A DNA stretch of 34,343 nt from a virus: IMG/VR virus record IMGVR_UViG_3300025141_000380, positions 1-34,343 of that record. One strand, given 5' to 3'. The notes under the pieces were generated by a model that was given only the letters and a program-made list of their open reading frames with translations, was not told where the DNA came from and searched no databases. Positions 3,165-31,943 of this stretch are shown in pieces. Made by a program: the position numbers and the translations under genes. Within the stretch, counting starts at the first letter, position 1, and every line of letters begins with the position of its first letter.

Positions 3165-5837
3165 GTGAGTGACATTCTAGACGAAGAAGAGGACGGCTTC
3201 CTCGGCCAGTTGCGCGATCGATACGGTGGGCCATCCAGTGAAAGAGCGACCGCCGTTGCTGACGACTACCTTGCTCAAAACAGGGGTTTCTTAGAGGCGC
3301 TTCCGCCTGTTGTCGATGTCCTCCCGGATGATGAACGGCAGCATCCTCCTGTTATTACGCGGCCAGAGCAGTCGCCCATTTCTCCCAACCCGTATTCGCG
3401 TGAAGCGGTTCCGAAGAGAATGGAGTCGCTTGTAGGCAGCGTGCCAGACCCATCGTCGGCACTCCCGACGGCGCCCACTGGCCGGTTCAGGAGTGGCACC
3501 TCTCCGAGCGGGACGGTGGCTAACACAGCGAGATCAGGAGCCCCCGGAGGCCTTGATCCGGCCCGACAGCGCGGCACTGCGCCTGCTGCCCCGGTTCCAC
3601 GGCGCGCACCGCGCACGATCTCCGACTACACCGGACCAGGCGGCGAGGGAGTCGTGCCCCGTGGTGACGAGACGAGCAGGGCCAGACGACCGTACAGCAT
3701 CCCCGAATGGCTACGCCCCGAGGAGCGCGTCACACCAAGTGAGACGAGGGTCTACAGTCCGACCAGAACCGCAATGAGCACGACAGGTGACGACCGGATG
3801 CAGGCGCGCCGCGCGGGTGTTGACGTTGCTTCAAGGCTACCAACACGCCTTCCTCCCTCACGCGACACAGAAGAAGACCAACCCGGTTTTGGTGAGGCCG
3901 AGGGCTCCATGAGCTTCACCCAGGCCGAGACTGACGCCGCAGTCGCTGGAGCCGGTGCCGAGCGCGAGCGACGCAGCGGGCTCACGCTCGAGCAGTTGAT
4001 CGACGAAGCGTCCCAAGGCGCAACTGCGCCAACGGACGCGCCTGCGGACAACGAAGCCCTTGAGCTTGCGTTGAACCGGATAGAAGCTGGCGAATCTGAA
4101 GCGGAGGACGAAGCCGCTGTCGAGTCGGTGGCCGAGGACGAGGCGGAAGAGGCTGCGGAGGCCGAGGGTCGCGAACTCACCGAGCGAGAGCGAAGAGACG
4201 CGGCGGAGGATCGCACGCTCTGGATCCAGAACATTATCCGCTCGGGTGGAAACTTTGCCGCGTTGCTCGTCAACGCCATCGCGGGAGGGAGCCCGGAGAA
4301 TACGCAGCGCCTCACGCAGGCATCCCAGCGCAACCGCGCCATGTTCGCACAGGAGCTGAACGCTGTGCGTCAGTCCAGGCACCGCAGAAACCAGCTAGCA
4401 CAGGAAGGAGAAATCCGCACGCGCCAGGCTGACCAGCGAGACAGGCAGCTCGACATACAGGAACAGGGACAAGAGGCGCGCCTGGACATATCTCGCCAAG
4501 ACCTTGAGATGCGAAGGCTCGTGACCGAAGCCCAAGCTGCCGCGCTCGGACGTGCGAACGAGATGGTCCCAGAAGATGAACTGCGAGGGTGGTGGTCGGC
4601 GCTTAATGCCCAAGGTCGTACCGGCGACCAGTCCCAGGACGACTTCGCCGCACAGCAGTGGACGCGAGGGGAGCTCGCGGCAAACCTCAACGAGTTGGAG
4701 CAGCCCAGGGGTCGCGGCGGAAGGGGCGCCAGGAGCCGACGCCGAGGACCGGGGGGTGCCCCCCCAGGAACGCCCCCAGGGGGAGACAACGTTCCGGTCG
4801 TAGATGGCATTCCCGTAAACGAGTGGAGCGACGAGCGAATACACACATGGAACACTACGATGCGCGACCACCCGTCTAGGATCGCGTTTCTGAACTTTGG
4901 ATACCGTCCTCGCGGCTGGACAACAAATCCAGACGGCACGCCATCCGAGCCAGTGAACCCAGAGGGGCTCGAGCGTGCGCGGCAGCTTGACCCCGACGAG
5001 TCGCGCGGACTAGCCGCTGCGCTGTCGCGCTTCGAGGGAGAAGTGTCGGCGGCCACGCGAACCAACCCGGTCACCGCGCGGAGTACGGGAGTTATGCAAC
5101 GAGCCGGACTGCCACTGGCTGGAAGGGCGCTCAACGAGGGTGGCGCGGTGCTGTACACACCACGCCAAGGGACGGGGATGCCCAACCCAACGTTTAACAA
5201 TATCCAGAACTTGCAAAAGAGAATCACCAACTCCAGGCGGCTTGATCGACTGGAGATGAACGTTCGTCGGGCCATGGCGCAGTACAACCAGGCAATGGCT
5301 AACGGTGCGTCATCCACCGCAGTGTCGCTTGCGACGGCGGCTGGACCAGGCATTGCCGCAGGTGGGCAGCGCGCGATCGCGCGCTACCTCGATGGTGCGG
5401 GACACCTCTCGCAGCCAACGAGAGATGCGGTGGGGGCACTTTTGCGCGCTGAACAGGCGCTTGAGGGAACTACCGCAGTTTTGCGCGAGCTCGACACATG
5501 GGGAGCCGTCACAATGGGCGAGCGCGACGTGGCACAGGAGGTAATCGGCCAAGTTCGCGAGCCTGGATTGCAGGGTGGGTTTGACCCCTCGCAGGTCGAG
5601 AGGTACTACGCGGCAGTTGGGCGAATGAGAGACGAGGTGAGGGAGGGCAACCGGCTAGCGTTCACCCAGACGCCCAACTCATGGGTTCTTGACTTCAGCG
5701 GACTTCCCGGTGGGGAGAGCCACCCAATGAACGGGAGGCAGATGGACCTGGCGAACGTCCGAAGAGCGGTCGAGCAGTACATAAGAAGAAATCCCAACGC
5801 CAACATGAGTGGCCTTAGCATTACGGCGGCGAGGTAG
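3165..5837 (+). CDS. Candidate large internal virion / ejection protein B
   Basis: An 890-aa protein. The GTG at 3165 is preferred because GGGAGGA lies 5 bases upstream; the earlier ATG at 3114 would give a 50-bp overlap and lacks a ribosome site. Residues about 20-250 are low-complexity and Pro/Arg/Ser-rich. About 270-350 is strongly acidic (runs of Glu, Asp and Ala), and about 400-480 is a Gln/Arg-rich coiled coil. A Gly/Arg/Pro hinge lies near 515-550, followed by a more folded C-terminal half. No enzyme motif such as a transglycosylase Glu signature was recognised. It is the middle of the three-gene ejection set, one base after the preceding stop. The 20-bp start context is also found before the gene at 14167 on the other strand. 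Confidence 0.6.
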   Translation: MSDILDEEEDGFLGQLRDRYGGPSSERATAVADDYLAQNRGFLEALPPVVDVLPDDERQHPPVITRPEQSPISPNPYSREAVPKRMESLVGSVPDPSSALPTAPTGRFRSGTSPSGTVANTARSGAPGGLDPARQRGTAPAAPVPRRAPRTISDYTGPGGEGVVPRGDETSRARRPYSIPEWLRPEERVTPSETRVYSPTRTAMSTTGDDRMQARRAGVDVASRLPTRLPPSRDTEEDQPGFGEAEGSMSFTQAETDAAVAGAGAERERRSGLTLEQLIDEASQGATAPTDAPADNEALELALNRIEAGESEAEDEAAVESVAEDEAEEAAEAEGRELTERERRDAAEDRTLWIQNIIRSGGNFAALLVNAIAGGSPENTQRLTQASQRNRAMFAQELNAVRQSRHRRNQLAQEGEIRTRQADQRDRQLDIQEQGQEARLDISRQDLEMRRLVTEAQAAALGRANEMVPEDELRGWWSALNAQGRTGDQSQDDFAAQQWTRGELAANLNELEQPRGRGGRGARSRRRGPGGAPPGTPPGGDNVPVVDGIPVNEWSDERIHTWNTTMRDHPSRIAFLNFGYRPRGWTTNPDGTPSEPVNPEGLERARQLDPDESRGLAAALSRFEGEVSAATRTNPVTARSTGVMQRAGLPLAGRALNEGGAVLYTPRQGTGMPNPTFNNIQNLQKRITNSRRLDRLEMNVRRAMAQYNQAMANGASSTAVSLATAAGPGIAAGGQRAIARYLDGAGHLSQPTRDAVGALLRAEQALEGTTAVLRELDTWGAVTMGERDVAQEVIGQVREPGLQGGFDPSQVERYYAAVGRMRDEVREGNRLAFTQTPNSWVLDFSGLPGGESHPMNGRQMDLANVRRAVEQYIRRNPNANMSGLSITAAR

Positions 5838-14167: not shown

Positions 14168-14313
14168 GTCATCCTCCCGCCCGCCGCTTCGTACAGCCGG
14201 CTCATCAAGTGATCGATCATATCGTCCGCCTGTGTCACTGGGCGGCGCTTGTCGGCCACCCACCGCTCACAGCAGGCAATGAGGAGTAAAATCTCCGGTC
14301 TTGAGAGCGTCAT
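14164..14313 (-). CDS. 49-aa protein upstream of the annealing gene
   Basis: A short gene read directly from the sequence. ATG at 14313, stop TGA at 14166-14164, product beginning MTLSRPEILLLIACCERW. The GGGAAGA leader seen before many leftward genes lies at 14317-14323, and the stop overlaps the GTG of the annealing gene (GTGA), so it looks like a genuine coupled gene. It is helical with a Cys pair. Function unknown. Confidence 0.6.
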   Translation of the reverse strand: MTLSRPEILLLIACCERWVADKRRPVTQADDMIDHLMSRLYEAAGGRMT

Positions 14314-14464
14314 ATGTCTTCCCTTCTCGGTGCGCCTTTGCAATCGTGCTCACCACATGGTCGGCCTGCCCCAGGCGGAGACTTCTTTTGCTCCGCTCGA
14401 GCCGACCGATTAGATCGTTCAGTACCCGTACCACGCTAATCTGCTCAAGTCTAGACATTTTCAT
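14267..14464 (-). CDS. First gene of the leftward recombination operon, unknown
   Basis: A 65-aa basic helical protein (VVRVLNDLIGRLERSKRSL near residues 11-29). Its ATG at 14464 has no good ribosome site; a second ATG lies two codons in. It overlaps the following 49-aa gene by 47 bases, which is unusual, so either the start or the gene itself could be wrong. It lies only 46 bases from the divergent regulator gene. A small DNA-binding or regulatory role is possible but unsupported. Confidence 0.45.
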   Translation of the reverse strand: MKMSRLEQISVVRVLNDLIGRLERSKRSLRLGQADHVVSTIAKAHREGKTYDALKTGDFTPHCLL

Positions 14465-14510
14465 TGTACTCTGATCGCCATTGGGTTAGATAGATGGGAG
14501 GAGGAAAGCT
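14465..14510. promoter_or_regulatory. 46-bp divergent intergenic space
   Basis: This is the only non-coding DNA between the leftward recombination operon and the rightward regulator/replication operon. It holds the strong GGGAGGAGGAAAG ribosome site of the regulator. No clear -10/-35 pair or palindrome is visible, so promoters probably extend into the flanking genes. The regulator encoded next door is the natural candidate to bind here. Confidence 0.4.
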
Positions 14511-14783
14511 ATGACGTTAAGTTCAGAAGAGTGGAGAACCCTGATTGCTGCGCGGATAAGGGATGCTCGCCGCGATTCCGGGTTCAGTCAAAATACACTA
14601 GCGGTCGCTTTGGGTCTACACCCGATGACCGTTTCAAAGTGGGAGCGGTGCCTGGTGACCCCGTCGATCGAATCTTTCGTGGACGTGGAGCGCGTGCTCG
14701 GGGTTCGGAAAGAGTGGCTGCTAACCGGCGAGGGGAGCATGAAGAAAGGGGACGGCAATGAAACAACTCAGCTTGCTGGATGA
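14511..14783 (+). CDS. XRE/Cro-family transcriptional regulator
   Basis: A 90-aa single-domain protein. Residues about 10-65 form the lambda-repressor-like helix-turn-helix: IRDARRDSGFSQNTLAVALG, then HPMTVSKWERCLVTPSIES, and EWLLTGEG as the fifth-helix end. There is no peptidase or oligomerisation domain, so it is Cro-like, or a repressor not cleaved by RecA. It is preceded by GGGAGGAGGAAAG and overlaps the next gene by 26 bases. It opens the replication operon and faces the recombination operon, so it likely controls one or both. The palindromes at 23938-24183 are another possible target. Confidence 0.85.
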   Translation: MTLSSEEWRTLIAARIRDARRDSGFSQNTLAVALGLHPMTVSKWERCLVTPSIESFVDVERVLGVRKEWLLTGEGSMKKGDGNETTQLAG

Positions 14784-15261
14784 GCCGGAGCCGGGGCTGG
14801 CGGTATCGCTTGAGTACTGCTCTCCGTCACTGCACTCAGCGAGACAGGCGGTCAAGGCAGGACGAGAGAGGGGCGTCGTGTGCCCCTGCTGCGACCAACT
14901 GGTCAAGGTATACAAGCGCCGCATCAATCTCCAGATGGCGAGAGCTGCTCTCTGGATGTCAAGGACACCCCCAGGACAGTTTGTGGACATGACCAAAGCT
15001 CCAGCCAGCATTGTCCGCAACCGAGAGTACAGCCGGCTGGCCCTCTGGGAGCTCGCCGAGGCTGAGCGCGGGAGAAACCACGCAGGGGCAAAGAAGGGCC
15101 GGTGGCGCCTGACAAAGGGTGGGCGCCTGTTCGTGGACAACGTGCTTCGCGTGCCCGAGTACATCCTGGTGCTCAACGGGAAGGTCATCGATGTTTCACG
15201 GGAAACAACGCACATAGGTCGCGTCAAAGGGTTTCACTTCATGGAGACCTGGGATGTCTAA
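14758..15261 (+). CDS. Zinc-knuckle / winged-helix-like phage protein
   Basis: A 167-aa protein. A CPCC motif near residues 42-45 suggests a small zinc site. It is followed by VKVYKRRINLQMARAALW, then REYSRLALWELAEAE and WRLTKGGRLFVDN, a pattern shared with small phage proteins that look like winged-helix DNA binders. It lies between the XRE regulator and the initiator-like gene, with overlaps of 26 and 8 bases, so co-translation is likely. AAGGGG lies upstream of the ATG. A role in regulation or replication start is inferred from neighbours. Confidence 0.6.
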   Translation: MKQLSLLDEPEPGLAVSLEYCSPSLHSARQAVKAGRERGVVCPCCDQLVKVYKRRINLQMARAALWMSRTPPGQFVDMTKAPASIVRNREYSRLALWELAEAERGRNHAGAKKGRWRLTKGGRLFVDNVLRVPEYILVLNGKVIDVSRETTHIGRVKGFHFMETWDV

Positions 15262-16087
15262 GCCGCGCTACGCCAAGCTCATGGGGGACGCATGGCGCAA
15301 CCCCAAGCTCGCGTGCCTGGGTAACCAGGCGTTCAGACTCTACATCAACTGCATCTCGTACTGCGCCGACAACCTAACCGATGGCGTTGTCCCAGCCCAC
15401 GTCATGCCCGCGCTTGTGCCGGGAGCTGTGCCGACGGCACTGCCGGTGGAAGAGCTAGCGGTAAAGCACGGGCTACTGCTAGAGGTCGATGGAGGGTATC
15501 AAGTGTGCAACTTTCTGGAGCATAACGTGTCCCGCAAGGACATTGAAAAGCATAGCCAGATGCAGCGAGAGAAAGCCAACAAGCGCTGGAAAGATAAGGA
15601 GAAAAAGGAAGAGAAGCCCAAGGTCCCACCTGCCAAGTATGCCGACGGCAATGCCGCCGGCAATGCCAAGTATAAGTATAAGAACAACCATAAGAATAAT
15701 TCATCACATGTATGGGTGGTGAAGATTATCAGCGAGATGTATAACGGCATCTTCGGTACTGACTGGTTCGGCTACGCGCAGTACCATACGGAGCTGATGC
15801 AGTTTGCTGAATGGGCTGGGCAGCACGCCGACCCATCGTCCGCAGTGCGGATGGCATGCGAGGGGTGGTCAAAGGACCCCTATGTAATCAAACAAAACTA
15901 CGGCCCTCTGCCTCTCTTGTGGAGGAAGGCGCCGCAGTACTACCTCGCCGGGGTTGGCGGGGATGAGGCGTCGAAGAAGGCGAAGCTCGAAGAGCTATCG
16001 CGCCAAGAGGACCGAGCGTACAAGGAGGGAAACAGTGCAGAAAGCAAGCGACTACAGGAAGCTATCGCCAGGCTTCAATCGGGCTGA
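15254..16087 (+). CDS. Phage replication initiator-like protein
   Basis: A 277-aa protein. Residues 1-100 resemble the winged-helix N-terminal domain of phage replisome organisers (NQAFRLYINCISYCADN, then EELAVKHGLLLEVDGGYQV). Residues about 105-150 form a Lys-rich low-complexity linker. The C-terminal part is helical with aromatic residues (YNGIFGTDWFGYAQYHTEL) and could bind a host helicase or loader. The modular plan and the operon position are those of lambda O-type initiators. The linker coding region holds short repeats and an AT-rich patch. The ATG overlaps the previous gene by 8 bases. No polymerase or helicase gene accompanies it. Confidence 0.6.
   Translation: MSKPRYAKLMGDAWRNPKLACLGNQAFRLYINCISYCADNLTDGVVPAHVMPALVPGAVPTALPVEELAVKHGLLLEVDGGYQVCNFLEHNVSRKDIEKHSQMQREKANKRWKDKEKKEEKPKVPPAKYADGNAAGNAKYKYKNNHKNNSSHVWVVKIISEMYNGIFGTDWFGYAQYHTELMQFAEWAGQHADPSSAVRMACEGWSKDPYVIKQNYGPLPLLWRKAPQYYLAGVGGDEASKKAKLEELSRQEDRAYKEGNSAESKRLQEAIARLQSG
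15632..15714. other. Candidate replication origin inside the initiator gene
   Basis: Two copies of GCCAAGTAT (15632-15640, 15665-15673) flank two copies of the near-palindrome GGCAATGCC (15647-15655, 15659-15667). Next comes a patch of about 25% GC (15668-15714) with AAGTATAAGTATAAG. The surrounding genome is near 60% GC. Iterons followed by an AT-rich stretch within the initiator gene is the lambda ori plan. Part of the signal could simply reflect Lys/Asn/Tyr codons of a linker. Confidence 0.4.
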
Positions 16088-18325: not shown

Positions 18326-18633
18326 GTGGCCCTCAGAATAGCTTCCTCGTGGTAGTCCGTATCGTCGAAGTCATCGACCTCAACGTCACGGTCACGGCAC
18401 TCCTCAAGCACTTGCTGCTCGAGCTTCTCAAGGATGGCCGGCGCAATCAACTCCAAGATGTTGTCACCACCAATGCGGACATCCCTCGGACACTGCGATG
18501 GCTGCGGCGACACCAGCCTAACATCATAGATGATAAGCTCCTCTGGTTGGGCAGGCTGGAAGCGAGTCGCCAACTCGTGCTCGGTGTACTCGTACTCAAC
18601 CTCAAACTCGAATCCGTCTTGTTCAACTTTCAT
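18313..18633 (-). CDS. Small acidic protein, unknown function
   Basis: A 106-aa, strongly acidic protein (EFEVEYEYTEHELATRF at the N-terminus, EECRDRDVEVDDFDDTDYHEE near the end). High acidity in a small early phage protein can indicate a DNA mimic that inhibits host nucleases, but nothing specific supports that here. The GGGAAGA leader lies at 18636-18642, two bases before the ATG. It overlaps the methyltransferase gene by 11 bases. Confidence 0.65.
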   Translation of the reverse strand: MKVEQDGFEFEVEYEYTEHELATRFQPAQPEELIIYDVRLVSPQPSQCPRDVRIGGDNILELIAPAILEKLEQQVLEECRDRDVEVDDFDDTDYHEEAILRATCSH

Positions 18634-19477
18634 TATCTTCCCTCTCTTCTATAGACGCGCAAGCGTCATGGTTTCTGACAAGTCTCATTGCTTCCCTGAT
18701 GTATGTACCAATCACCTGTGACACCTGGGGCACCACTGCGTTGCCTAGTCCTCGCAGTCGGTCCATCCGATGGGGAACCCCATCATCCACTCCACGAACC
18801 GTGGGGCCAGCGGACCAGGCATGTGACGAGCAACCACCGTAGCCAGGCCGTCCCCCGCCTTGGCGCTCAGTCGCGCCTTGTTGTAGTTGCCCTTCACCGT
18901 AGGCGTGGGGAGCCGGCCCGCCTTCGCCAAGGTCCAGAGCGAGGGTGTGCCCGCGCTCGGACGCGTCGAGTTGATACCGTTCTGAGAGGTGCCGTATCTT
19001 GACGCGGTCGGGGTGGGCAACGATGAAGACCCGCCGACGCTGATGCGGCGCCCCCACCTCAGCGGCTGCAAGCCGTAGTGGCACCGACTCGTAGTGCAGT
19101 TCTGCAAGCTGCCGCCGCACAGTGGGCACCCACTTGCGCCATCCGTGGTGGACGTTTTCGATGACGACCCACGACGGTCGCTTGACTTCGATGATTCGCT
19201 TGTACTCATACCACAGTCCACTCTTCTCTCCTGACAACCCCGCGCGCTTGCCGGCGGGGCTTAGGTTCTGGCAGGGGAACCCGCCACATATGATGTCCGC
19301 GTCCGGCGGACGGAGCCCCACTACATCCTCGAAGCAGGGCACGTTAGGCCAGTGCTTAGCCAGCACACGCCGTGCGTATGGCGAGCTCTCGCACTGCCAC
19401 ACAGTGTGGCCTAGACCCGCGCGTTCGAGACCCATCTCTAGGCCACCGATGCCACTGAATAGGCTACCTATCCTCAC
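18623..19477 (-). CDS. C5-cytosine DNA methyltransferase (orphan)
   Basis: A 284-aa protein. The GTG at 19477 has GGAGGA six bases upstream and puts motif I at the very N-terminus; the upstream part of the frame lacks similarity. Motif I is RIGSLFSGIGGLEMGLERAG (2-21), motif IV GGFPCQNLSPAG (65-76) with catalytic Cys69, motif VI ENV (107-109), motif VIII QRRRVFIV (146-153), and motif X RGLGNAVVPQV (242-252). The target-recognition part (about 155-240) is short and Gly-rich. No restriction enzyme is encoded nearby, so it probably protects phage DNA from host restriction or marks it. It starts in a 4-base overlap with the zinc-ribbon gene. Confidence 0.93.
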   Translation of the reverse strand: MRIGSLFSGIGGLEMGLERAGLGHTVWQCESSPYARRVLAKHWPNVPCFEDVVGLRPPDADIICGGFPCQNLSPAGKRAGLSGEKSGLWYEYKRIIEVKRPSWVVIENVHHGWRKWVPTVRRQLAELHYESVPLRLAAAEVGAPHQRRRVFIVAHPDRVKIRHLSERYQLDASERGHTLALDLGEGGPAPHAYGEGQLQQGATERQGGGRPGYGGCSSHAWSAGPTVRGVDDGVPHRMDRLRGLGNAVVPQVSQVIGTYIREAMRLVRNHDACASIEEREDNES

Positions 19478-19740
19478 GACTCGTCCTCCGTCGAGGGCGC
19501 TACCAGCTTGACAGAATCCAACAGAGCCCCCGCGCTCTCGAATCTCCACCCGCATGGGCACACCACCTCACGACTCGACCAGTCGGGCAGCCGGATGATT
19601 TCCTTGCATCCCTGGCACACCCAAGCGCCCGCCCCCTGCCCAAGGCACAGGCGCGCGGTCCTGCCGCATGGGCACGTCACATCCGCCACGGTGCCCGCAA
19701 CAGGCTCTATGCTGGTAGGGTTTTGGTACTCCTCACTCAT
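19474..19740 (-). CDS. Zinc-ribbon-like small protein
   Basis: An 88-aa protein with CPCG near residues 23-26, CQGC near 42-45 and CPCG near 61-64. Paired knuckles of this spacing suggest one or two zinc sites and nucleic-acid or protein binding. GGAGGG lies before the ATG. It overlaps both neighbours by 4 bases and directly precedes the methyltransferase, so it may be translated with it. Partner unknown. Confidence 0.65.
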   Translation of the reverse strand: MSEEYQNPTSIEPVAGTVADVTCPCGRTARLCLGQGAGAWVCQGCKEIIRLPDWSSREVVCPCGWRFESAGALLDSVKLVAPSTEDES

Positions 19741-23349: not shown

Positions 23350-23511
23350 TTAGTAGTTCAGCCAGTCGAGCACTTTCTGTGCATCGTAGACCGCTTGGTC
23401 GCCGACCTCGTCAAGGAAGTCGGACCAGTCTCCATCGTGGACGACCTCGACCTCGTGTCGAGCCCGTTCCTTGGTTATGACCACGCCCTCAGCGCTTTCG
23501 TAGTACGTCAC
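23350..23511 (-). CDS. 53-aa acidic protein
   Basis: A short gene read directly from the sequence: GTG at 23511, stop TAA at 23352-23350, product beginning MTYYESAEGVVITKERARHE and containing DGDWSDFLDEVGD and a final helix DAQKVLDWLNY. Its GTG overlaps the preceding stop (GTGA). Similar short YYExAEGVxIxxxRA proteins occur in other phages, with unknown role. Confidence 0.65.
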   Translation of the reverse strand: MTYYESAEGVVITKERARHEVEVVHDGDWSDFLDEVGDQAVYDAQKVLDWLNY

Positions 23512-23690
23512 TTGCAACAACTCCCGTTCAGAGACGCTATGGCTAGTGTCGTACCTCGGGTATCGCCGACCTTGCGACAGTACTCAAGCACGGCGACAGC
23601 TCGCTTGCGCTCTTCAGGAGTGACGGCGCATCTTAGGATGCAGAAGCACTCGCGGTGGGCATTCTCGGTGCCCGATGTGGTGTGTGGCAT
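23508..23690 (-). CDS. First gene of the leftward accessory block, unknown
   Basis: A 60-aa protein. The ATG at 23690 has CGGAGG four bases upstream; a longer start at 23747 is possible but lacks a ribosome site. It contains HRECFCILRCAVTPEERKRAV and ends NGSCCK, so it is Cys-rich, and the basic helix could bind nucleic acid. It faces the long regulatory gap and should be the first protein made from the leftward promoter. Confidence 0.6.
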   Translation of the reverse strand: MPHTTSGTENAHRECFCILRCAVTPEERKRAVAVLEYCRKVGDTRGTTLAIASLNGSCCK

Positions 23691-23825
23691 GGTGCCTCCG
23701 ATGTGGTGTGAGTGACTCCCGATGTGTGAGAGTTGATTGAGTGACATTGCAGCACTCGTGCCAAGTATGATTGCACACGGCTTAGGCCGTAGTAGTGTAG
23801 GAAACCCGCACGCGAGGAGAGCTCG

Positions 23826-23986
23826 GGTAAGTGACCGTAATGACAGGGGTTATTGGGGGTTGATAAGCGTGCCTGTTCTGTGGTAGTTTCGAGGGTGCTG
23901 AGGGGGGGATTTGGCCGGCCCGCCTCCCTCCCCCGGAGTGAACTCTTGTTCACGGGAAGCAGGGGGCAATCGGCGGTAAGTGACCG
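23826..23986. repeat. Pair of 12-bp direct repeats GGTAAGTGACCG
   Basis: Exact copies at 23826-23837 and 23975-23986, 149 bases apart, on either side of the first GTGAAC palindrome. The core GGTAAGTGACC is an imperfect palindrome, so it may be a second kind of protein site in the same control region. Confidence 0.55.
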
Positions 23987-24183
23987 GAAATGCTGGAGGA
24001 AGTTGCATCTCGAGCAGCGTTCACAGTCGGTGTAACCCTCGGTTCACGAACCAGCCTGGTTTGGGGGTGTGAACTGGTGGCTACACCACACCGATAGTGT
24101 GAACTGTGGTTTACGATGGGGGGTCTCGCGTGCTTGTGTGAACTAGCGTTTACTCGAGCGTCGATGTGTGAACCAGCGTTCAC
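23938..24183. repeat. Array of GTGAAC-N4-GTTYAC palindromes (operators or iterons)
   Basis: Perfect or near-perfect 16-bp sites lie at 23938-23953 (GTGAACTCTTGTTCAC), 24099-24114, 24138-24153 and 24168-24183 (GTGAACCAGCGTTCAC). Weaker copies lie at 24009-24024, 24032-24047 and 24069-24084. Starts are spaced 71, 23, 37, 30, 39 and 30 bases, so the last four are roughly whole helical turns apart. Such rows bind a dimeric protein cooperatively: a repressor, an initiator or a partition factor. Confidence 0.75.
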
Positions 24184-24333
24184 AGCAGGGGTCTCGACGG
24201 AGAGCTTGATGGCACCCACCCCCCACCACCCCGGAGCCCGGTCCCCCTTTTTATTGGCCCCCCTCGTTCATGAGGTCCTCAAACGGGTAAGCACTGCTCG
24301 CTAATAGACCGGCGTACAGTTACATGATACTAC

Positions 24334-24900
24334 ATGACTATGTCTGACGTGCCTTGGACCGACCCTAAGTTTGATTTAACTGAAGAGAACCGTGTGAAGT
24401 TGGAGCGTGCTCTTCAGCGTGCCCACAGGCGAGCTCCTGGCCGTTCTCAAGCTGACCTACACGAGCATGGTACGGTGAGCGAGGGCGTTGAGTACGGACG
24501 CCCTGTGCCTCCTACTGCTCGAGAGGACTGGCATGCCCAACAGCGTGAGCAGGCTTTGGCTGAGCAGGCGGGGCATGACCAGGAACTCGGGCGCACGGGA
24601 GAGTTCGACAGCACGGGGGTGGTGACTCAGCCATCGGGATTCGGCATGGCCCCCGATAGACCCAACCGGGTTCGCTCGGAGTGGCACGAGCAGCAGCGAC
24701 AGCGGGCGTTGGTCAACCAGGGTGTGGGCGACCAGGCTCCCGGCAACTCCCAATCAATCCTCCACAGCGTCGAGGAGCAGCACAGGCGTCCCGTTCCCCG
24801 CGACGCCTGGCACGAGAATCAGCGCCGTCTTGCGGAGGCCGAGGCTGAAACACTCGCTGAGCAGGAGGCACTGCGCCGAATGGCGGAGGGCGGCAGGTGA
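24334..24900 (+). CDS. Repeat-containing protein upstream of the terminase, unknown function
   Basis: A 188-aa polar, helical protein. It contains three copies of a WHxQQR-type unit: EDWHAQQREQALAEQ near residue 66, SEWHEQQRQRALVNQ near 115, and a shorter DAWHENQRRLAEAEA near 155. The first and last are preceded by RPVP. No Shine-Dalgarno sequence precedes the ATG, so translation may be leaderless or use the second ATG at 24340. It is the first gene of the late operon, directly before TerS. A DNA-packaging or virion role is possible, but no family was recognised. Confidence 0.65.
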   Translation: MTMSDVPWTDPKFDLTEENRVKLERALQRAHRRAPGRSQADLHEHGTVSEGVEYGRPVPPTAREDWHAQQREQALAEQAGHDQELGRTGEFDSTGVVTQPSGFGMAPDRPNRVRSEWHEQQRQRALVNQGVGDQAPGNSQSILHSVEEQHRRPVPRDAWHENQRRLAEAEAETLAEQEALRRMAEGGR

Positions 24901-24915
24901 ATGGAGGTCGTCTAT

Positions 24916-25362
24916 ATGCTTTTAACTGAGACGCTGGCCGACCAGTTGATCTCTCTCGTTCGGAGAGGGAACTTCCTTCAGGTGGCCTGTAGAGCATGTG
25001 GAATACCGCCATCAACACTGCATAAGTGGCTAGAAAGGGGTCACCAGGGCGATGAACCATACAGAGGTCTCGCCACACGACTGAATGCAGCCCAGGCAGA
25101 GGCCGAAATAGACCTCGTAGAGAGCCTGAATAAGGCCGCCGCGCGAGACTGGAAAGCGGCGGCATGGAAGCTGGAAAGAAAATACCCCGACAGGTACGGG
25201 CCTAGACTAGAGGCTCGCATAGAATCACAGGTGACAGATGAGCGAGTCGCAACACTCACAGCCGCACAAGCCAGAAATAGACTCAAGCTCCTCCAAGGAG
25301 GGCCGAGGGCGACCTTCGAGACGGAGGGGAGGGAAACCGTCCCGGAGCCGGGAACCTCTTGA
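24916..25362 (+). CDS. terS: Terminase small subunit
   Basis: A 148-aa protein. The ATG at 24916 is chosen because GGAGGT lies 7 bases before it; an in-frame ATG at 24901 is the alternative. Residues about 15-45 form a homeodomain-like helix-turn-helix (LQVACRACGIPPSTLHKWLERG). Residues 60-100 carry AEAEIDLVESLNKAA and WKAAAWKLERKYPDRYG, a typical small-terminase oligomerisation and core pattern. It should bind the packaging site and load the large subunit, which lies four genes downstream. The C-terminal 41 residues overlap the next gene in another frame. Confidence 0.8.
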   Translation: MLLTETLADQLISLVRRGNFLQVACRACGIPPSTLHKWLERGHQGDEPYRGLATRLNAAQAEAEIDLVESLNKAAARDWKAAAWKLERKYPDRYGPRLEARIESQVTDERVATLTAAQARNRLKLLQGGPRATFETEGRETVPEPGTS

Positions 25363-25787: not shown

Positions 25788-26008
25788 CCTGGCCGATTGT
25801 GGCCCTGGTGATAGGTGTGCTCGCCATCGCAGCGGCGAGAGACATACTCGTGCGCTCACAAAAGGCATTGGCCCAGACGGAGACGGACGAGCGCGTCGAG
25901 GCCATTGAGAAGCGTCTGGCGCAAATCACCGCCGACATCTCTAACATTGATGCCTCCGTTCGGGACCAAAACACACGGCTCACGCTTTCCCGGCGGCGGA
26001 GTGGCTGA
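25784..26008 (+). CDS. Small membrane protein with coiled coil
   Basis: A 74-aa protein starting with GTG in a GTGA overlap. Residues about 3-20 are a hydrophobic span (WPIVALVIGVLAIAAA), followed by a charged coiled coil (ETDERVEAIEKRLAQITADISNI) and a basic end. It lies just before TerL (TGATG junction). The plan resembles spanin/XhlA-like accessory proteins, but here it sits in the packaging module. Role unknown. Confidence 0.6.
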   Translation: MTWPIVALVIGVLAIAAARDILVRSQKALAQTETDERVEAIEKRLAQITADISNIDASVRDQNTRLTLSRRRSG

Positions 26009-27417
26009 TGTCCATCTCGGAGGAGGAACAACTCAAGGCCCACCTGTGGGAGCTCGGAGACCTTTCCTACCTTCTGCATGAGGGACAAGAGTTCATCAGG
26101 GATAAGTTCTACGAGAGCAGCGGGAGACGCTTCATCGTCAACTGCTCCAGGCGCTACGGTAAAAGCTACCTGGCCTGCGTCATTGCGCTAGAGCACGCAC
26201 TTAGGCACCCCGCCTCGCAGATACGGATCGCAGCACCCACAGCCAAGATGGTTCGCGGCATCATTGAGCCGCACATGAGGAATCTGCTCCTTGACGCGCC
26301 GCGCACCGTAAAACCAAAACACCTCAAGAACGTGGGCAACTGGACGTTCCCCAACAGCTCACAGATACACGTCGCTGGCTGCGACGCTGGCAACGCAGAG
26401 CGACACCGTGGAACAGAGATGCACCTCGGCATTATCGAAGAGGCTGGCTTCGTCGATGACCTGGAGTACGTCTGCCAAGACATCTTTCTCCCGCAAACCA
26501 TCACTACGGATGGACGCATCGTCATGCTGTCTACACCACCGCGCACACCGGCACACCCGTTTGTCATGTACTGCTCCAACGCAGAGGCGACAGGTAACTA
26601 CGTCCACAAAACAATCTACGATGCTCCACACATCAACGACCGGCAGAGGGAAGAATACTGCACCGAGTCGGGTGGTGAGCACTCCACAACGTGGCGCCGC
26701 GAGTACATGGCGGAGTTCGTCGTGGATGAAAGCCGCGCGATTGTACCCGAGTTCAGTGATAATGAGAAGAATATTGTGGGTACTGTGGACAGGCCGGACC
26801 ATTTTGAGTTTTACACGGCTGCTGACCTGGGTTTCCGAGATTTGACCTTTGTTGTCTTTGCTTACTACCACTTCCCTAACGACATGATGGTCATCGAGGA
26901 TGAGCTCGTGCTCGAGCGCGCCAACAGTGGGATTATCGCGTCTGAAATAAAGAAGAAAGAGGCTGCGCTGTACGGGGATCAAGAGCCGTCAATGAGAGTG
27001 GTGGATGCAGACCGAATCGTGCTCGCCGACCTGTCCAGCATTCACAAGATGAGGCTCACGCCGGCCCGCCGCGACGACCGCGATGCGGCCATTAACGCGC
27101 TTAGACTGGCGATCACGTCTAAGAAGTTGCTGATTCACCCTCGATGCACGGCTCTCAGGGCGCATTTGCGCCACGGAGTGTGGAATAAGGCCCGGACCAC
27201 CTTCGCGCGGAGTGGCGAGTTTGGGCATTTCGACGGCGTTGCGGCGGCGTGTTACTTGCTTAGGCACGCCATGCGGGGCAAGAATCCTTTCCCAATACGC
27301 GCACCAGGTGTAACGGGTGACAACCATTTCGTTCCCAAGAGGGCGGCGAACGGCGACAGTAACGCAGAGGTAATTGAGATCTTCAAGCCTCGGCACAGGA
27401 AGACGTGGAGACGATAA
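26008..27417 (+). CDS. terL: Terminase large subunit
   Basis: A 469-aa packaging ATPase-nuclease. The Walker A-like motif CSRRYGKS is at 46-53 and Walker B with catalytic Glu is LGIIEEA at 140-146. The coupling motif IVMLSTP is at 171-177. The C-terminal RNase-H-like nuclease has candidate metal Asp at 273 (AADLGFRD), 333 (VVDAD) and 409 (GHFDG). Length and motif order fit phage TerL proteins. It starts in a TGATG junction with GGAG upstream, and its stop TAA overlaps the portal ATG. With TerS it would cut and pump DNA through the portal. Confidence 0.9.
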   Translation: MSISEEEQLKAHLWELGDLSYLLHEGQEFIRDKFYESSGRRFIVNCSRRYGKSYLACVIALEHALRHPASQIRIAAPTAKMVRGIIEPHMRNLLLDAPRTVKPKHLKNVGNWTFPNSSQIHVAGCDAGNAERHRGTEMHLGIIEEAGFVDDLEYVCQDIFLPQTITTDGRIVMLSTPPRTPAHPFVMYCSNAEATGNYVHKTIYDAPHINDRQREEYCTESGGEHSTTWRREYMAEFVVDESRAIVPEFSDNEKNIVGTVDRPDHFEFYTAADLGFRDLTFVVFAYYHFPNDMMVIEDELVLERANSGIIASEIKKKEAALYGDQEPSMRVVDADRIVLADLSSIHKMRLTPARRDDRDAAINALRLAITSKKLLIHPRCTALRAHLRHGVWNKARTTFARSGEFGHFDGVAAACYLLRHAMRGKNPFPIRAPGVTGDNHFVPKRAANGDSNAEVIEIFKPRHRKTWRR

Positions 27418-30593: not shown

Positions 30594-31943
30594 ATGGCTA
30601 CAGCAGTTACAACCTCGCAATTGGACGGCTTTTTCAAGCGCGTCTACGGCGACGATTTAGAGGCGCTCGTTCCCGAGTTCGCCATCGTCGCAAAGAAGAT
30701 TCCCTTTCAGAAGGCAGATAAGATTGGGGATAGCTTCCGCTTTCCCTGCAAGCTGACTCGTTCCCAGGGTTACACCTGGAACGGTACGGCGGCGGGCGCC
30801 GGTTCGGCGTTTGCGCTCAACGAGCCCATTAGCCTTGTCACTCGCGAAGCGAACGTGACCGGCTCGGAGTTCGTTCTTCGTGAGCGTTTGAGCTACGGCG
30901 TTGTCTCCCGCTCCGGCGGCAAGGAGGAGTCTTTCGGCCCCGCCTTGGACGAGGTTGTGCTCGACATGACGGAGTCGGCGGCTTTCCAGCGTGAGATGGC
31001 TCTTTTGTACGGTGGTTCAAACACCGGCATTGGCGCGTTCCTTGGCGCTGGCTGGGCTCCTGCTCCTCCTGCGAGCGGCGTCATTACCCTTAGCGCTCAT
31101 TCTTGGGCGGGTGGTCTTTGGGCTCAGATGGAGGGCGCGGAGATCGACATCTACGAGGATCCGGGCGGTATCGGCGTAGCAACGGGTCTCGTGAATACAA
31201 ATGGCGCAGTGACGATCACGGCGATTGATCCCGACACGCGGCAGGTCTCGATTACCTGTAATGTTGTGGCGGACCTTGCTTTGATCACTGCGGCGGTTGG
31301 GGCGGCTGAATGTTTCATCTACCCGCGTGGGGCTTACGGCCTGGTTGGTCCTGGTGCTGTCCCGACGGGCGGTAACTGGTTCAACGGTCTTGATGCTATC
31401 ATCAGCAACGCTGGCACCTTGTTTGGGATCAACGCTGCGACCTACAACCTGTGGCGCGGCAACGTCTACAACAACGGTGGCTTTCCGCTGAGTGCGGCGG
31501 GTCTTCAGCAGGCGATGAGTCGGGCTGCGGTTCGTGGGTTGATGGAGGACGTTACCGTCCTTGTCAGCACCTACACCTGGACTGACCTTCTGAACACCAC
31601 GCTTGGTAACAACCGTTACTACAATGACAAGAACCCCGACAGTGAGTTCACGTCCGGCAGCAAGAGCATCAAGTTCTTCGGCGTCAACGGTGTGATGGAG
31701 ATCGTTCCTCACCCGATGGTAAAGGCTGGGGACACTTTCATCGTTCCGATGAAGCGTTGCTTGCGTATTGGTTCGACGGACATCACGTTCCGTTTGCCTG
31801 ATGCTGGTCCCGATCGATTCGTTCGTCAGTTGTCGGACGCAGCAGGTTTCGAGATTCGGAACTATTTCGACCAGGGCTTGATTGTCACTCACCCGGCTCG
31901 GTGTGTGAAGATCACGAACATCGTCCCGACTTCTGGTCCGTAG
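30594..31943 (+). CDS. Major capsid protein
   Basis: A 449-aa protein. AGGAG precedes the ATG. The N-terminus has TSQLDGFFKRVYGDDLEALVP and FQKADKIGDSFRFPCKL, a capsid-protein pattern of large podovirus-type HK97 folds. A Val/Thr/Ala domain (about 155-240) may be a surface insertion. The codons use more T-ending Leu, Val and Ala triplets than nearby genes, as expected for the most abundant protein. A 136-bp gap before it has no visible gene and could hold its own promoter. A strong hairpin follows the stop. Confidence 0.85.
   Translation: MATAVTTSQLDGFFKRVYGDDLEALVPEFAIVAKKIPFQKADKIGDSFRFPCKLTRSQGYTWNGTAAGAGSAFALNEPISLVTREANVTGSEFVLRERLSYGVVSRSGGKEESFGPALDEVVLDMTESAAFQREMALLYGGSNTGIGAFLGAGWAPAPPASGVITLSAHSWAGGLWAQMEGAEIDIYEDPGGIGVATGLVNTNGAVTITAIDPDTRQVSITCNVVADLALITAAVGAAECFIYPRGAYGLVGPGAVPTGGNWFNGLDAIISNAGTLFGINAATYNLWRGNVYNNGGFPLSAAGLQQAMSRAAVRGLMEDVTVLVSTYTWTDLLNTTLGNNRYYNDKNPDSEFTSGSKSIKFFGVNGVMEIVPHPMVKAGDTFIVPMKRCLRIGSTDITFRLPDAGPDRFVRQLSDAAGFEIRNYFDQGLIVTHPARCVKITNIVPTSGP

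Follow-up and report, generated by a model that had tools for sequence, protein, structure and literature searches.

A cluster of GTGAACN4GTTYAC dyads next to a conserved block at the head of the late operon of an uncultured phage: probable binding sites for a DNA-binding protein

Results

The present analysis concerned one entire IMG/VR virus record (34,343 bases; hereafter the window) and revealed a cluster of 16-bp dyads in the non-coding spacer that separates its leftward accessory genes from its rightward virion operon. The most economical reading of these data, to which we give a probability of about one half on the basis of sequence comparisons, is that the cluster is a set of lineage-specific operator-like dyads, located upstream of a late promoter or leader and intended for a dimeric sequence-specific DNA-binding protein. 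This reading is supported by a clustering far beyond that of shuffled sequences and by the location of all strict matches in one single non-coding spacer between divergent operons.

The record behaves as a closed circle. Since its last and first ORFs cross the record ends, as in the collinear viral contig L008, it can be considered as effectively circular; no terminal repeat was found at its ends (positions 1 and 34343). No similar DNA was found for the window in the phage collection. The features discussed below are listed in Table 1. The first rightward ORF contains three similar [ED]WH.[QN]Q-type stretches, gave nothing significant in Pfam, PHROGs or NCBIfam, and is absent from the related contigs L006 and L007.

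Table 1. Location of the genes, palindromic sites and conserved elements of the window.
Feature	Coordinates	Strand or direction	Remarks
Recombination-type genes	12.1-14.46 kb	leftward	
XRE (14511), 14758 product and initiator (15254) genes	14.5-16.9 kb	rightward	
XRE (HTH_3) regulator gene	14511-14783	+	recognition helix GLHPMTVSKWER
Replication initiator gene (phrog_3926/phrog_2447)	15254-16087	+	contains CGGCAATGCCGCCGGCAATGCCAA beside an AT-rich stretch; weak ori candidate
Accessory genes, including C5 methyltransferase	16.9-23.7 kb	leftward	
C5 methyltransferase gene	18623-19561	leftward	
Non-coding spacer (about 640 bp)	23691-24333		between leftward block (start codon near 23690) and first rightward ORF (24334)
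Dyad site 1	23938-23953		GTGAACTCTTGTTCAC; 0 mismatches
Half-site	24009-24024		CTCGAGCAGCGTTCAC; right half GTTCAC alone kept; Watson-Crick in 2/6 arm pairs
Weak dyad	24032-24047		GTAACCCTCGGTTCAC; 2 mismatches; inverted relative to 24069
Weak dyad	24069-24084		GTGAACTGGTGGCTAC; 3 mismatches
Dyad	24099-24114		GTGAACTGTGGTTTAC; 1 mismatch; right half GTTTAC
Dyad	24138-24153		GTGAACTAGCGTTTAC; 1 mismatch; right half GTTTAC
Dyad	24168-24183		GTGAACCAGCGTTCAC; 0 mismatches
Conserved block, probable late promoter or leader	24212-24333	+	adjoins the cluster on its right, at the start of the rightward operon
First rightward ORF (188 aa)	24334-24900	+	
Virion genes	from 24334, past the record end, to about 11.7 kb	rightward	
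TerS gene	24901-25362	+	
TerL gene	starts at 26008	rightward	virion block
Portal gene	starts at 27405	rightward	virion block
Major head gene	starts at 30594	rightward	virion block

In the 34,343 bases, GTGAACN4GTTYAC is matched with no more than one mismatch at four places only, all of them inside 23938-24183 (mismatches of the sites being counted against GTGAACNNNNGTTCAC), and every match of the whole record to GTGAACNNNNGTTYAC with at most one mismatch also falls in the cluster. A first reading made from the sequence alone (the sequence-only reading) had announced seven 16-bp palindromes in these 246 bp; besides the four strong copies, two weaker ones were retained between them, while the one at 24009 proved to be a half-site only. 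The null model consisted of 300 dinucleotide shuffles of the complete record; it predicts 0.003, 0.11 and 1.4 matches at 0, 1 and 2 mismatches, compared to the 2, 4 and 6 observed. The maximum number of matches in 246 bp at up to 1, 2 and 3 mismatches is 4, 5 and 6 (shuffle maxima of 1, 2 and 4), and this clustering was reached by none of the 300 shuffles. The density check against shuffled sequence suggested earlier thus came out in favour of the cluster, with no strict copy elsewhere in the record. At the three-mismatch level, the record contains 14 matches compared to 14.6 by chance; therefore, isolated weak matches elsewhere in the record are meaningless. The sequence-only reading was right in proposing that the main divergent region, beside the late operon, contains a cluster resembling binding sites: as in a phage operator cluster, several copies of one dyad are grouped beyond chance in a control region, and they lie in non-coding DNA.

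The centres of successive sites are separated by 71, 23, 37, 30, 39 and 30 bp, i.e. 6.76, 2.19, 3.52, 2.86, 3.71 and 2.86 turns at 10.5 bp per turn. Since the helical phase is not constant, the sites are not on one helical face, and the idea that the last three spacings approach whole helical turns does not hold. All six dyads retain the outermost GT and AC, and the inner bases vary. LexA-type boxes are expected to have a GAACN4GTTC core; they were set aside because the dyads keep the outer GT/AC more strictly than the inner bases and the host of the phage is not known.

Searches with TerL identified three close viral contigs (L006, L007 and L008, 85-92% identical) and L051, which belongs to a gammaproteobacterial MAG and whose TerL is 85% identical to that of the window. 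L058 is the left part of the MAG contig of L051 and carries the XRE, 14758 and initiator genes in the order of the window; L058 and L051 together make up the whole 21.9-kb MAG contig. Four distant contigs were also found with TerL, and a scan of them for near matches gave one single site, in L034, and nothing more. For ORF 24334 and for the initiator, single-sequence searches of viral contigs detected no relatives, and an alignment-based search gave one distant match for the initiator and four for the 14758 product.

The palindrome, even with up to 2 mismatches, is absent from the five loci (four phages) L006, L007, L008, L051 and L058. Lack of conservation of the palindromes beside conserved flanking genes, which the sequence-only reading would have held against itself, is therefore what these relatives present; yet they carry other repeat-rich DNA at the position of the cluster. 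To the left of the conserved block, each lineage carries different short repeats, and the sequences do not align convincingly. Repeated 7-mer pairs at the cluster position amount to 46 in the window, 86 in L051, 83 in L007 and 61 in L006, in each case more than in every one of 200 shuffles (maxima of 61, 43 and 36 for L051, L007 and L006, respectively), and six control segments have no such excess; L008 was left out of this verdict, its composition being too simple to judge. The repeats of L007/L051 and of L006 are heterogeneous and are not copies of one dyad. Judging from these loci, the position of the cluster is conserved among relatives though the sites are not.

The right border of the cluster is common to these phages. 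The core of the conserved block (GTTCATNANNNCNNCAAACNNNTAAGCAC, 24266-24294) has perfect pattern matches in L006, L007, L008 and L051, thus in five phages with the window. Alignments of the block of the window with those of L008, L006 and L051 gave scores of 154, 54 and 37, against shuffle maxima of 30, 30 and 26, all 300 shuffles being beaten in the three cases. The gene that follows the block differs among the five phages: the 188-aa ORF, TerS or, in L051, two other genes encoding a 169-aa protein and a C5 methyltransferase that stand between the block and TerS. Because of these intervening genes, the block belongs to the operon head and not to TerS, and the simplest reading is that it is probably a late promoter or leader. 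A scan of 23500-24500 gave no sigma70-like promoter, and the putative link between the cluster and transcription therefore comes from the conserved block. The two additional genes of L051 (5725-6929) are at the head of its late operon, the methyltransferase gene of the window being in the leftward block instead. By eye, the 169-aa protein resembles Mom-like modification proteins; it has no NCBIfam match.

A promoter-like block located at the left border of the spacer is strongly common to L006 and L051. The same block was sought in the window, also with a profile test, and was not significant (scores of 22 and 24, the shuffles reaching 32 and 29). Other blocks of this promoter-like type (reverse strand, about AAAAAAACTTCCAAGG...GTCTAAC) are located in front of leftward genes of L006 (200-260, 670-720 and 905-960) and L051 (5120-5180). 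The leftward block of L051 encodes an ECF-type sigma factor (4136-4615, minus strand; TIGR02937, E 7.6e-22), and positions 1-160 of L006 resemble by eye the start of a similar gene. The promoter-like blocks of L006 and L051 may be promoters of this sigma factor; the searched ORFs of the window gave no match to the ECF-type family.

Discussion

The palindromes of the cluster are most likely docking sites for a DNA-binding protein. If they are operators, the dyads, which separate the leftward accessory genes from the rightward virion operon and directly precede the conserved putative late promoter or leader block, would be filled in an order set by their quality: the two full-strength end dyads and the two near-perfect ones would be loaded first, and the degenerate middle copies would follow, helped by a higher local concentration. 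Once occupied, the sites would repress or gate the late operon, and possibly the leftward one too. The binder is probably not the XRE regulator, and would rather be a lineage-specific or fast-evolving protein of phage or host, since the relatives have other repeats at the same position; the leftward ORFs that were searched yielded no further helix-turn-helix gene. The invariance of the outer GT and AC, the conservation of the block whatever gene follows it, and the excess of repeats at the same place in L006, L007 and L051 also speak for operators. Points against them are the location of the dyads on different helical faces, the heterogeneity of the repeats in L007/L051 and L006, and the occurrence of the same palindrome as a repeat within initiator genes of other phages, which would rather suggest a role in replication.

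Several known systems resemble this cluster in part. Like the lambdoid OR/OL, it groups dyads of graded quality in a region flanked by divergent transcription units, but the repressor-type gene of the window is 9.4 kb off and has its own divergent promoter region, and its helix is unchanged in a relative devoid of the motif. Like the lambda-type ori, whose iterons are inside the initiator gene O, it includes several near-identical palindromic sites in a short stretch; however, the sites of the window are non-coding, have no AT-rich flank and lie about 8 kb from an initiator gene of another type. The stoperators of cluster A mycobacteriophages are repeated phage sites bound by a phage DNA-binding protein (PMC6550527), as is predicted for the dyads of the window, but they are asymmetric and spread along the genome (PMC9283540), whereas those of the window are palindromic and confined to one spacer.

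The sequence-only reading had named three possible roles for the sites: operators of the XRE regulator encoded at 14511, iterons of the initiator encoded at 15254 or a partition-like site. Palindromic operators are usual for the XRE family, and this protein is the sole helix-turn-helix regulator recognised in the record. However, the XRE protein of L058, 78% identical to that of the window, has a recognition helix that is the same letter for letter, its surroundings included (LAVALGLHPMTVSKWER), yet no site with at most 2 mismatches exists in L058 or L051, i.e. in the whole 21.9-kb contig, and the best site in the promoter region of the XRE gene of the window (14300-14560) has 4 mismatches. 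Operators of this regulator would be expected at its own promoter and would follow its recognition helix across relatives, and neither was observed. As the same helix should need the same sites, XRE was rejected as probable owner of the dyads, a role that we regard as very unlikely. Iterons, with the spacer as origin, are doubtful, although GTGAACN4GTTYAC is a recurrent initiator-type repeat, which speaks in favour of this idea. Indeed, a search for two close copies in 2.9 million viral contigs retrieved 21 stretches, 10 of which have the sites inside an initiator-like gene (about six gene families), where they encode its linker. Four of these proteins (L017, L020, L021 and L027) match replication-initiation PHROGs; the L013- and L014-type proteins with in-gene palindromes have weak helix-turn-helix matches only. 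Judging from its sequence, the ORF that follows the L014-type gene is DnaB-like. Eight copies of the palindrome were also noticed in intergenic DNA of two large, closely similar viral contigs (L019:10602-10792 and L028:285-475). In-gene iterons next to an AT-rich stretch correspond to the known lambda arrangement (PMC7466680). Furthermore, the initiators of the window and L058 are only 61% identical, which would allow a change of specificity in step with that of the array. Against iterons, the initiator of the window is not detectably related to the palindrome-bearing ones (hhalign probability of 0.1) and matches other PHROGs, its gene, about 8 kb from the cluster, has no array (the best match inside has 3 mismatches, which is chance level), and the DNA around the cluster (23901-24200) has 35-44% A+T in 100-bp windows, with no AT-rich flank. 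The palindrome recurs in unrelated phage initiator-like genes, but at the cluster itself the usual marks of an origin, i.e. sites in or beside the initiator gene and an adjacent AT-rich unwinding element, were both lacking. In addition, the initiator gene contains its own doubled GGCAATGCC followed by a stretch with 67% A+T (15640-15720), identical in L058, which is a possible and more usual place for an origin; the run of identical codons at this repeat indicates weak conservation (p 0.16). An AlphaFold2 model of the initiator was too poor for use (mean pLDDT 41.8).

The inverted repeats could also function through their folding alone, either in RNA, as antitermination or decoy hairpins, or in DNA able to form hairpins, a reading that we consider unlikely. 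On both strands, folding is better than that of shuffles for the regions of the window, L051, L007 and L006 (z from -1.7 to -5.7); for that of L008, this is so on the plus strand only (-2.5, compared to -0.8 on the minus strand), 22 control folds having z between -1.1 and +1.5. Furthermore, despite their C-to-T changes, the sites at 24099 and 24138 retain a G-U pair on the plus strand. However, paired positions are not spared by the changes between L051 and L007 (94.5% identical), changed pairs are rarely preserved and compensatory changes number 0-3, depending on the strand and the reference structure. Hairpin covariation between these two loci is unsupported, with no sign of selection on pairing itself. 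Moreover, there is no Rfam match, and the minimum-energy plus-strand fold of the window is mostly long-range, unlike a succession of such hairpins. A role in terminase recognition (as a pac/cosB-like site) or in partition deserves hardly any credit. Repeat arrays are typical of such sites and the cluster is close upstream of TerS, but the helix-turn-helix of TerS is largely kept in four phages whose DNA at this position is altogether different, whereas pac/cosB sites should be kept wherever the DNA-binding domain of TerS is; a TerS packaging site is therefore unlikely, and the conserved block would be a better terminase site than the cluster. The partition-like site found no support, as none of the searched ORFs matches ParA or ParB, whose genes should accompany a parS-like site.

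The spacer could possibly be a hypervariable cis-module, a view that we advance tentatively. Its place and right border would be constant while the repeated sites inside would be replaced wholesale: a fast-evolving protein (immunity-type regulator or initiator) and its sites would change specificity together, XRE, TerS and the late block staying put. If the sites do turn over as a block amid a stable neighbourhood, these phages would offer a natural series for the co-change of phage sites and protein specificity. The recurrence of GTGAACN4GTTCAC in phage initiator-like genes also implies that such arrays should not be filed as repressor operators per se. Finally, if the dyads are an operator set, the cluster would mark the probable switch of an uncultured marine phage group, of which the obvious XRE candidate would not be the owner.
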